The notes under the pieces are model-generated. The model saw only the letters and a program-made list of their open reading frames with translations. It had not been told where the DNA came from and did not search any database. From Nitrospira sp. (lineage in GTDB: Bacteria > Nitrospirota > Nitrospiria > Nitrospirales > Nitrospiraceae), in contig JAOUMR010000010.1 in NCBI GenBank assembly GCA_029881435.1, positions 1-57,329 of the forward strand: DNA of 57,329 bases, read 5' to 3'. The translations under genes and the position numbers were made by a program. This document shows, piece by piece, positions 16,663 to 20,735 of the stretch (positions are counted from its first letter, which is position 1; the number at the start of each line of letters is the position of its first letter).

Positions 16663-18942
16663 TTAGACCTTCCCAAAAATTCTCTCAAAAAACTCCTTCA
16701 CCTTTCCCATGTGATCTTCAACATCCGACTTGAGGTGTCTTGCCCCCGCCTGCCAGTCATCCGTCGTGTACCCCACGCGACGAGCCAGGAAGACAAATTC
16801 GTCGGAGTCGACCGGTGGGAGGACACGGTCTTTGGCGTTCCCACGGACCATGCGAAGGCCATCGATAAGCATGCGAATGAAGAAGTATGCCTTTCGCAGA
16901 TCGTCGCCGTCTTGCCTCGTGACAAGTCCACAATCGACAAGGGCTGCCAAGGCCTGCATCGTGTTGGAGGTGCGCAAGGCGGTGAGCTTATGGCCATGCA
17001 TGATCTGGAGATACTGGACCGCATATTCGATCGCGACGATGCCTCCCGGGCTATGTTTGAGATTCACCGTGCCGCGCTCCACCAGCTCTTTCAGCTGTTG
17101 CCGGCGTAAGTCAAGCGCGGTCCGAAGATCCCAGGGTTTGCCGCTGTAGACGTAGTGATCACGATGAGCTTCGACGCGCTTGCCGAGCGCCGCATCGCCG
17201 GCCACATGTCGTAGCTTGATCAAGGATTGGCGCTCAAACGGGGCCGCCAGGCCACGGTCGCTGTAGTACTTGGCAATCTCATCGAAGGGGTTGGTCAGGG
17301 ACCCCTTTCCACCATGGGGGCGCAGGCGCACGTCGAGATGGAAAATGCCCTCTTGTTTGGCTTCGATCCATTGCAACAGCTCATGACCCAGCCGCTCAAA
17401 GTATTCGCTGTTGTCGATCGGGCGCTTGCCGCCGGTGCGACCTGCGTCGCCATACACGAACATCACTTCAATATCGGAGGCATACCCAAGCTCTCCACCG
17501 CCGAATTTCCCCAGGCCGAGCACGGTGAAGGGGCAGGGTTTCTTGTTGGCTAAGCGCGGCGGGCCGTACAGCTTGTTCAACTTGGCTTGGCAGTCTTTTA
17601 TGCTCCGATCGACGATGACTTCGGCGAGCTGCGTCAAGGCGGCGGAGAAGTCTGGCAAGGTGGTGTCCGACTCGACGATGTGTTTCATGTCGATGCGGAA
17701 GAGCTCGCGATCTTTAAAGCTGTTCAGCGCCGCCTTCCGATCTCCGTCGGTGTCGGCCCGATTGACCAGGCGATCAAGTTCCTTGCGAAGTGTCGCTCGT
17801 GGTCTCATGAGGGGCGCGTCGCGATAGTCTTGCAGAAGCGGCAGCAGATTGCTGTGTTGGCGGCGGAGAAAATCTTCCCAAAGAAAATCGCTGGCCCCGA
17901 GCAAACGGGCCAGCAGCGGAAAGGTTTTCTTGTTGCTGAGAAAGGCCAAGGTTTCTTGCTGGGCCTTTCCCTTTGTCTGTTGCACCGTCAGGTCGAGGAA
18001 CTGGTCGAAGGCTTCTAGCGCTTTGGTCGGGTCCGGGGCCCAGGTCAGGGCATGGGTGAACTGCTTGATGAGCACCGCCGTCAACCGCAGCTGTTGCTGA
18101 TCGGTCGCGTCGGTGAGCTTCTGGCCATGGCGGTTGCGGACATAAAAGCGGTCATGAATCTTCCCGTTCTCGACGTCGAACTGGGCCTTGGAGACATAGA
18201 TGTTGCGCATCGCAAGGGCATTGGCGAAGGCATACAAAAAGGCCGGCGTATCGTCGGATCGGATCTCCATGACTGTGTCGATGGCGGACTGGCTGTTGTC
18301 GAACGCGATTTGCACGGGATTGAGCAAACCACCAAAAGATGCGCGTCGTTTCCCGAGCTGCTCGACCAGCCGTCGATTGACCGCAAAGCGGGCCTCTGCA
18401 AATTGTCCTTTATCGAGCAGCGTGATGACCGAGTGGAGCCCCTCTTCCAATTGCGCCTGTTGCGCCGCGCCCCACTCCTCTCCGAGTATCGGCAGCACAC
18501 GAAACACATCGACAATCTTTTTCCTGCTTAAGTCGGAAGTTCCCTTGAGGCGAACACGCGGTCCATACCCCGTCCAAGTTGTTCGGGAGGGTAGCGGATC
18601 CGTCTTTTCGGCGAACGTATAGATATCTCCCTCCTCAATATTCAACCCAAAGGCTGACAGCAGGCCACAAATAGTGGCGAACGCTGCGAAGTAATCGTAG
18701 GCCACGATCGTGATCTCAAACCGTGTATCCGGCTGTTCGGAAAAGGCGATGGTGCAGGGGTGCTCAGACGTCAGCTGCGCCGTCAAGCGGATGTGTTCCG
18801 CTATGGTCGAGGGATCGAACCGTCGGAAGTATTCCTGATCCATGCGGGTGAAGAAATCTTGGAGGATATCGTCCGGAACACCTGAGCACAACTGACGAAC
18901 GCGATTAATGAGAGGGGTTTGGTCAGGAGAGCCGCGTGGCAT
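16663..18942 (-). CDS. ACT-domain/GlnE-like nucleotidyltransferase hybrid
   Basis: A 759-residue protein. The N-terminal third holds two GlnD-type ACT modules: FEITIVAYDYFAAFATICG (about 75-112) and DDTPAFLYAFANALAMRNIY with DRFYVRNRHGQKLTD (about 230-280). From about residue 440 it is GlnE-like: FTVLGLGKFGGGELGYASDI (about 470-490), then LDVRLRPHGGKG and GGIVAIEYAVQYLQIMHG. GlnE adenylylates glutamine synthetase; ACT domains bind glutamine in GlnD, so direct glutamine sensing is inferred. The metal-binding SDxD motif reads SDIE, which might alter activity. The start at 18942 is preferred to an upstream ATG at 19026, because a TATACT box lies just before it. It is divergent from a classical GlnE half. 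Confidence 0.8.
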   Translation of the reverse strand: MPRGSPDQTPLINRVRQLCSGVPDDILQDFFTRMDQEYFRRFDPSTIAEHIRLTAQLTSEHPCTIAFSEQPDTRFEITIVAYDYFAAFATICGLLSAFGLNIEEGDIYTFAEKTDPLPSRTTWTGYGPRVRLKGTSDLSRKKIVDVFRVLPILGEEWGAAQQAQLEEGLHSVITLLDKGQFAEARFAVNRRLVEQLGKRRASFGGLLNPVQIAFDNSQSAIDTVMEIRSDDTPAFLYAFANALAMRNIYVSKAQFDVENGKIHDRFYVRNRHGQKLTDATDQQQLRLTAVLIKQFTHALTWAPDPTKALEAFDQFLDLTVQQTKGKAQQETLAFLSNKKTFPLLARLLGASDFLWEDFLRRQHSNLLPLLQDYRDAPLMRPRATLRKELDRLVNRADTDGDRKAALNSFKDRELFRIDMKHIVESDTTLPDFSAALTQLAEVIVDRSIKDCQAKLNKLYGPPRLANKKPCPFTVLGLGKFGGGELGYASDIEVMFVYGDAGRTGGKRPIDNSEYFERLGHELLQWIEAKQEGIFHLDVRLRPHGGKGSLTNPFDEIAKYYSDRGLAAPFERQSLIKLRHVAGDAALGKRVEAHRDHYVYSGKPWDLRTALDLRRQQLKELVERGTVNLKHSPGGIVAIEYAVQYLQIMHGHKLTALRTSNTMQALAALVDCGLVTRQDGDDLRKAYFFIRMLIDGLRMVRGNAKDRVLPPVDSDEFVFLARRVGYTTDDWQAGARHLKSDVEDHMGKVKEFFERIFGKV

Positions 18943-18949
18943 GGACGTC

Positions 18950-18999
18950 AGTATACCCGAATAGGTTTCATTGTGCGTAGGAGAACCTATCAGTATAAT
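18950..18999. promoter_or_regulatory. divergent promoter pair between the two glnE-like genes, both predicted leaderless
   Basis: Plus strand: TTGTGC (18971-18976), 17 nt, TATAAT (18994-18999), then 8 nt to the ATG at 19008. Minus strand: TATACT (18950-18955), 7 nt before the ATG at 18942, with only a weak -35. The 65-bp intergenic space holds both, so regulators bound here would affect both genes. Confidence 0.7.
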
Positions 19000-19007
19000 G
19001 CCGCCGC

Positions 19008-20735
19008 ATGGCTCGACGAACCCCACCGCCCCCCCCGTTGCCGCATCAGACCCCGGCGAGACGTGCGACTCCTAAGCCGGATCCTCGTCCCATCTTGTTG
19101 GCTGAGAAACGAGATGCTGAGGGCGTACGGGTCATTTTATCCGCATATGGACTACGTGATCTCGATCAGGCCGACCGTAACCTCAATGCTATGGCGGGCG
19201 ACCCTATCCAACGCCGGCGGCTGGCCGATATTCTGCCGATGTTGATGGAGTCGATTTCCAGGACCGCCGACCCTGATCAAGCGCTGAACCATTGGGAACG
19301 CATGTTGGGGAGTGTCTCGCGCACCTCTTTTCTCGATTACCTGCGCAACTGGCCGCGCATGCTTGATCTCCTCTGCGTCATTTTTGGGAACAGCGATGCC
19401 TTAACCTTTACGCTGCTCCGGGACCCGACGCTCGTTTATTGGTTGGCTGAAGAGAAAGTGTGGTCCAAACCACCGACCCGGAAGGGAATGGAGCGCGCGC
19501 TGTGCCAGAGTATTGGGCATCTCACCTCCAAAGAATTGAAATTGGACGCCCTTCGCCGGTTTCGACGACGCGAGATGTTACGCATCGGCGTCCGGGATCT
19601 GCTCCGGCTTGCGACGGTACCGGAGACAACCAGCTCATTGTCCGACTTGGCGTGCGTGATGATTCATGCCGCCTACGAGATCGTCGATGCCGATCTGAAA
19701 CGACAGTACGGCGTTCCTATGCATCGAAACAAGCCGGGACAGTGGTGTGAGACAAAATTTGCCGTCATCGGAATGGGTAAACTGGGCGGCCACGAATTGA
19801 ACTACAGCTCGGACGTGGATCTGCTCTACATCTATGAGTCTGATGACGGAGAAACCAGAGCTCAGGGGCCTAGACGTGCCGATAAACCGGCGGGCGTCGG
19901 TATTTCGAATGAAGAATATTTTGAGATTCTGTCCCGCGAATTGACCAGAGTCTTGACCGAGCCCACTCGAGAGGGACACGTCTTTCGAGTTGATCTACGA
20001 TTACGGGCCGAGGGTTCCGTCGGCCAGTTGGCACGGTCGCTCTCAAGCTATCAGCGGTACTATCTTGCGCGGGGACAAACCTGGGAGCGTTTGGCCCTCC
20101 TAAAAGCCTCCGCGATCGCCGGCTCGTCGGAACTGGGAACGGCCTTTGTCAAGGCCGTGAAGCCGTTCATCTTTGGAGCGGGCAAGAAACTCCCAAACCT
20201 GACTGAGACATCGGTTGTGATTGAGGAGGTGCGGGCCGTCAAGGACATGATCGATGGGAAAATGGCTGATCGGGGGCACGAACGTCGCAACGTGAAGCTC
20301 GGAACGGGCGGAATCAGGGAAATTGAATTCTTCGTACAGACCCTTCAAGTGCTGGCGGGAAGGCAGCTGCCCGCGGTGGTCGACAAGAGCACGCTTGGTG
20401 CCTTGGAACGCTTTGCACGTTGGAAGTTGATTTCAACCCAAGTGCAAGAGGATCTCACGGCCGCGTATCTCTTTCTTCGCGATGTGGAGCATAAGCTTCA
20501 GATGGTCCACGATCTCCAGACCCATTCACTTCCTAGCGACGAGCATGAATTAGAACGGTGCGCGACTCGGATGGGCTATGGCACGGAAGATCGCAAGAAG
20601 GCATCGGCACTTTTTCTTCTCGACCAGCAACGGCATACGACCATCGTCCACCGTACATTTCAATCTCTTTTTTTGGCGCCAACGACCTCTCCAGCTTTAG
20701 GCACAACGCTCAGGGCAAACAAAGCAAAGCGTTAG
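19008..20735 (+). CDS. GlnE-like glutamine synthetase adenylyltransferase, single half
   Basis: A 575-residue protein equivalent to one half of the usual two-domain GlnE (about 950 residues). After a Pro/Arg-rich start, the helical N-terminal region has LLRDPTLVYWLAEE. The nucleotidyltransferase core is AVIGMGKLGGHELNYSSDVD (about 252-271), with the full SDVD metal motif, followed by DLRLRAEGSVGQLARSL. The C-terminal helical domain has GGIREIEFFVQTLQVLAG and HKLQMVHDLQTHSLP, diagnostic of GlnE. It would add or remove AMP on glutamine synthetase. With its divergent ACT-fused partner it may form a split GlnE. The ATG at 19008 sits 8 nt after a TATAAT box. Confidence 0.83.
   Translation: MARRTPPPPPLPHQTPARRATPKPDPRPILLAEKRDAEGVRVILSAYGLRDLDQADRNLNAMAGDPIQRRRLADILPMLMESISRTADPDQALNHWERMLGSVSRTSFLDYLRNWPRMLDLLCVIFGNSDALTFTLLRDPTLVYWLAEEKVWSKPPTRKGMERALCQSIGHLTSKELKLDALRRFRRREMLRIGVRDLLRLATVPETTSSLSDLACVMIHAAYEIVDADLKRQYGVPMHRNKPGQWCETKFAVIGMGKLGGHELNYSSDVDLLYIYESDDGETRAQGPRRADKPAGVGISNEEYFEILSRELTRVLTEPTREGHVFRVDLRLRAEGSVGQLARSLSSYQRYYLARGQTWERLALLKASAIAGSSELGTAFVKAVKPFIFGAGKKLPNLTETSVVIEEVRAVKDMIDGKMADRGHERRNVKLGTGGIREIEFFVQTLQVLAGRQLPAVVDKSTLGALERFARWKLISTQVQEDLTAAYLFLRDVEHKLQMVHDLQTHSLPSDEHELERCATRMGYGTEDRKKASALFLLDQQRHTTIVHRTFQSLFLAPTTSPALGTTLRANKAKR

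Follow-up and report, generated by a model that had tools for sequence, protein, structure and literature searches.

A split GlnE in the class Nitrospiria with a GlnD-derived ACT module on its putative adenylylating half

Textbooks present the GlnD-PII-GlnE-glutamine synthetase (GS) cascade as a bicyclic signalling system. The two halves of Escherichia coli GlnE are reported to catalyse opposite reactions, with the C-terminal domain adding AMP and the N-terminal domain removing it (PMC12409994), and canonical GlnE is itself stimulated by glutamine (PMC6490700). Our search found no literature joining GlnE with an ACT domain, although few subscription journals were covered; a split GlnE with a GlnD ACT module is not described in the literature searched, and the only published mention concerns Nitrospira of the Great Lakes, which lack glnE (PMC9239080).

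A divergent pair of GlnE halves

The window (the whole stretch of DNA analysed, 57,329 nucleotides) belongs to a Nitrospira metagenome-assembled genome of 3.72 Mb in 206 contigs (99.85% complete), which encodes ammonia monooxygenase (AMO) subunit A and is therefore of the comammox type. Within the window, two GlnE-family genes, here called P1 and P2, lie 65 bp apart on opposite strands and are divergently oriented. Based on comparisons of sequence and predicted structure, we hold with moderate confidence that they encode the halves of GlnE as separate proteins: P1 the AMP-adding half, fitted with a GlnD sensor, and P2 the AMP-removing half. The features are as follows:

16663..18942, minus strand: P1, 759 aa, with a sensory module from the GlnD C-terminus fused to one GlnE half (putatively adenylylating, C-half side); from profiles, tree and AlphaFold
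18778..18918, minus strand: P1 residues 9-55, helices ahead of ACT1 with homology to the corresponding part of GlnD; from alignment and AlphaFold
18412..18756, minus strand: P1 residues 63-177, ACT1, in which 115-135 is an insertion modelled at low confidence; from alignment, AlphaFold and VIA-align
18040..18312, minus strand: P1 residues 211-301, ACT2, containing DRFYVRNRHGQKLTD; from alignment, AlphaFold and VIA-align
17170..17913, minus strand: P1 GlnE nucleotidyltransferase domain (PF03710)
17467..17478, minus strand: P1 SDIE metal motif, S489-E492, invariant in 54/54 homologues
16675..17070, minus strand: P1 C-terminal helical domain (PF08335)
18943..19007, no strand: intergenic strip of 65 bp with two divergent -10-like boxes; from sequence reading and recurrence
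18950-18955, minus strand: -10-like box TATACT, 7-8 nt from the ATG
18994-18999, plus strand: -10-like box TATAAT, 7-8 nt from the ATG
19008..20735, plus strand: P2, a 575-aa stand-alone GlnE half of N-half (putatively deadenylylating) type with canonical SSDVD; from profiles and tree
19371..20150, plus strand: P2 nucleotidyltransferase domain (PF03710)
20268..20672, plus strand: P2 helical domain (PF08335)

The P1 reading frame is open over 16663-19026 on the minus strand (787 aa), and its start is probably the ATG at 18942, because homologues start there; this gives the same span as the initial annotation of this DNA. A similar arrangement of divergent -10-like boxes, common at Nitrospira loci, was seen at 42 of the 81 loci scanned, which include truncated ones, and a consensus promoter scan of the strip found no promoter. 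Boxes so near the ATGs would leave the P1 and P2 transcripts leaderless or almost so. On the other side of P1, 15718-16539 (plus strand) encodes a protein of 273 aa whose start resembles a signal peptide and which has no match in Pfam.

Both proteins pass the curated cut-offs of PF03710 and PF08335 (E 8e-42 and 6e-17 for P1), and each of these profiles matches just these two proteins in the source genome. The best scores of the pair against whole-protein GlnE families in NCBIfam were 226.6 and 339.8 bits, compared with cut-offs of 487-724. No GlnD (TIGR01693) above cut-off was found in the source genome; of the two weak matches there, one is the ACT part of P1 itself and the other a protein resembling Rel/SpoT. 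The genome thus has neither GlnD nor a full-length GlnE, a point that the initial annotation had proposed to check. Its description of the remainder of P1 as GlnE-like reflects real homology, but to one half only, the other half being the adjoining P2, which that annotation had overlooked. A single broken gene, from a frameshift or an assembly error, was rejected given that the halves are on opposite strands and are split class-wide.

As in E. coli GlnE (PDB 1v4a, 3k7d), PF03710 is combined with PF08335, the GlnE fold extends over the length of both halves and the GS target tyrosine is conserved. The system differs in being encoded by two genes, divergent or, in some families, tail-to-tail, in the GlnD-type ACT module added to P1 and in having D-x-E in P1 instead of D-x-D.

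The GlnD-derived ACT module

The N-terminal part of P1 matches TIGR01693, where residues 52-314 of the reading frame (787-aa numbering) correspond to GlnD positions 617-842 (E 6e-23). The score of 81 bits compares with a cut-off of 519.4, and P1 does not have the GlnD architecture of nucleotidyltransferase, HD and two ACT domains: the nucleotidyltransferase and HD domains are absent, and the sensory module is N-terminal to the GlnE half. Homology nevertheless extends beyond the ACT domains themselves, with residues 9-301 aligning with the C-terminus of real Nitrospirota GlnD proteins, including both ACT domains and the pre-ACT1 helices, which the initial annotation had missed. An AlphaFold model built on a 54-sequence alignment (mean pLDDT 84.9) contains two ACT folds of the beta-alpha-beta-beta-alpha type, one spanning residues 63-177 and the other 211-301 (759-aa numbering). 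The profile match and the model, a prediction that the initial annotation had called for, thus bear out its reading of two ACT modules, as well as of a GlnD-type pattern in the second, where DRFYVRNRHGQKLTD lines up with ACT2 of GlnD. In fold and pairing the predicted module resembles the tandem-ACT regulators threonine deaminase, aspartate kinase and CASTOR1, with VIA-align Z scores of 11.3 for the aspartate kinase tandem ACT and 9.1-9.6 for threonine deaminase, but sequence identity is only 10-14%.

A further departure from GlnD is in the ligand loops, which have lost their glycines. In ACT1, YDYF(S/A)(E/A)F stands in place of GlnD PGLF, and the glycine is missing from all 54 aligned P1 sequences; in ACT2, DTPAFLY stands in place of DRxGLLY, and the glycine position holds alanine in 52/54. 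Glycine survives there only in two deep-branching members (L163, L166), which suggests that it was lost after the fusion. The replaced loops contain residues invariant in 54/54 sequences (D83, Y84, F88, P233, F235 and L236), so the sites are constrained but altered. Glutamine sensing by the module is therefore a plausible prediction for a site in which both usual ligand-loop glycines are absent. The class-wide replacement of these glycines could also mean that the module has lost amino-acid binding and serves a structural role or docks PII, leaving regulation to PII alone. This reading is compatible with P1 being the adenylylating half, but we consider it rather unlikely, as the invariant loop residues indicate strong constraint and the predicted fold matches that of ligand-binding tandem ACTs. 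We infer that the module probably binds a ligand, most likely glutamine, and that P1 adenylylates GS.

Assignment of the two activities

Phylogenetic placement was clear for P2 and less so for P1. The careful tree united P2 with the N-halves of full-length GlnE in one clade (100/100) and left P1 outside, close to the C-halves, with a long stem of 1.3-1.5 changes per column; a quick tree agreed. Topology tests rejected a grouping of P1 with the N-halves alone (AU p 0.011) and disfavoured, at a borderline level, its grouping with P2 (AU p 0.064), whereas a position between the two GlnE halves was not rejected (AU p 0.37). Half-specific profiles gave a similar picture: P2 scored better on the N profile by 29-113 bits, and P1 scored better on the C profile in 27/27 cases, by a margin of 7-42 bits compared with 67-255 for genuine C-halves. 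Across twelve half-discriminating columns, P1 was C-like in 7 (including R613, I/V636 and R697) and N-like in 4. The predicted structure of P2 (pLDDT 91.8) matched the E. coli N-domain 1v4a with Z 44.1 and the C-domain 3k7d with Z 40.7. For the catalytic part of P1, VIA-align gave a near tie between 1v4a (Z 41.7, 2.7 A, 415 residues) and 3k7d (Z 40.2, 4.3 A, 464 residues), which does not separate an adenylylating from a deadenylylating identity. Because the N-terminal domain of E. coli GlnE removes AMP and the C-terminal domain adds it, P2 is probably the remover and P1 the adder; judged from these comparisons, P2 is most likely the deadenylylating half and P1, by elimination and its weak C-half similarity, most likely the adenylylating half.

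The metal site of P1 bears on this assignment. P2 has the catalytic motif G-X11-D-X-D (SSDVD), while P1 has G-X11-D-X-E in 54/54 sequences. The SDIE motif is present, as noted in the initial annotation, which took it as a possible sign of a regulatory or altered-activity half, but it does not indicate a dead site: S489, D490, E492 and the third acid, D537, are all invariant in 54/54 aligned P1, and a site fixed class-wide at all three acidic positions is not a decayed one. A D-x-E metal pair occurs naturally in active nucleotidyltransferases, for example kanamycin nucleotidyltransferase. The VIA-align structural matches include an entry for an E52D mutant of ANT-4. P1 might nonetheless be a catalytically weak or dead ACT-sensing regulator of P2, with P2 alone both adenylylating and deadenylylating GS, which would fit the substituted second metal ligand and long diverged branch of P1, the canonical SSDVD kept in P2 and the good scores that P2 reaches against either half profile (about 480 and 387 bits). 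Given the invariance of D490, E492 and D537, the natural activity of D-x-E enzymes and the strongly N-half-like character of P2, we regard this as improbable and retain P1 as the putative AMP adder.

Distribution and loss of GlnD in one lineage

We searched 246 Nitrospirota genomes with a P1 profile. Among the matches listed, the profile was covered at full length in 92 genomes and partially in 5, all from the class Nitrospiria, whereas matches listed from outside the class covered only about positions 284-753, the GlnE part. No upstream ACT match was found at the 19 out-of-class GlnE loci examined, and the other Nitrospirota classes have an ordinary one-chain GlnE without ACT. GlnE reading frames are mostly 530-760 aa in the class and mostly about 870-1300 aa outside it. 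A scan of named genomes retained 80 loci, nearly all from Nitrospira or other Nitrospirota, and P2 was divergent from P1 in nearly all of those that extend far enough. Gene orientation varies among the class members examined: families f1, f2, f6 and f9 have the pair head-to-head, and families f4, f5, f7 and f8 have it tail-to-tail, indicating that the pair was kept together through rearrangement; loci L161, L162, L165 and L166 have the tail-to-tail order. A limited search for the fusion outside Nitrospirota, in plasmid records, gave partial matches only, at <60% identity and with none covering 80% of P1.

GlnD is kept in nearly all other genera of the class, but of 36 genomes scanned from the source genus, 27 show no GlnD with a normal score; two of these 27 are single-contig genomes (G109, G166). 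Where GlnD is present in the loci read, it sits between glnB and glnA; in GlnD-less genomes glnB is directly beside glnA (L230, at G000:C121:26000-32190, L222 and L225 are loci for this comparison). The glnB-glnA spacer of the GlnD-less genomes resembles the glnD-glnA spacer of an early-branching GlnD-plus genome (G129), and this retention of the old glnA-side spacer points to a clean deletion of glnD. In a tree of GlnB and GlnA, a branch (99/95) set apart 26 GlnD-less genomes, which fits a single loss; for some of the 26, the absence of GlnD was judged solely by the glnB-glnA junction. One genome of the genus (G050) has glnB beside glnA (L192, L188) and a weaker GlnD match elsewhere (E 7.6e-151), possibly from contamination or a fragment.

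Where AMO and GlnD were both tested, 12 genomes were AMO-plus and GlnD-minus, 6 were AMO-minus and GlnD-plus and one (G129) had both; 5 draft genomes had neither. The GlnD-less lineage keeps GS, PII and the GlnE pair, and wherever they are readable in the genus, the GS tyrosine (DLYDL) and Tyr51 of PII are both conserved. The source genome has two GS-family genes and five PII-family matches, with one PII gene directly ahead of glnA. Besides this GlnB and a match on C67, three weaker matches were seen (L011 on C15, L012 on C136 and L013 on C51), and the one on C136 reads through one in-frame TGA. Proximity of GlnE to glnBA was also considered and rejected, the two being on different contigs in the source genome, although in G163 and G166 only about 13-17 kb separates them.

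Read from gene content and order, the fusion and split are old and class-wide and coexisted with GlnD, which was deleted later, in one lineage. The initial annotation had proposed that an ACT-GlnE protein could sense glutamine directly and bypass the GlnD relay, but since most of the class carries both GlnD and P1, the fusion did not originate as a GlnD substitute; it may instead have made the loss of GlnD tolerable. That P1 is a GlnD surrogate transferring a nucleotide onto PII Tyr51 under ACT control, and not onto GS, is very unlikely despite its GlnD-derived ACT module and the conservation of Tyr51 where GlnD is lost, as most of the class has GlnD alongside P1, the catalytic half belongs to the GlnE type (PF03710) without the GlnD HD domain needed for removal, and the GS adenylylation tyrosine is also conserved with no other C-half present.

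In the mechanism that we propose for P1 as the adenylylating half, P1 would add AMP to GS with the GlnD C-terminal sensory module in front of its catalytic part, and P2 would remove it. The tandem ACT module would respond to an amino acid, most likely glutamine, by raising adenylylation of GS Tyr397 under plentiful nitrogen, and PII, binding 2-oxoglutarate and nucleotides, would provide a second input. With GlnD deleted in the comammox lineage, PII is no longer uridylylated by GlnD, and control of GS must therefore rest on P1, P2 and unmodified PII. It is possible, though less likely than not, that the GlnD-PII-UMP relay of comammox Nitrospira was replaced by direct action of glutamine on a stand-alone ACT-adenylyltransferase, alongside a separate AMP remover whose production and control would be independent.

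In these bacteria the sensor module of the cascade has been relocated onto its last enzyme, that enzyme is split into its probable opposing activities and the upstream enzyme, GlnD, is lost in one lineage. Relatives that have or lack GlnD, but whose operons otherwise match, constitute a natural test of the contribution of uridylylation. The loss of GlnD tracks ammonia-fuelled organisms and would matter for nitrogen control in nitrifiers.
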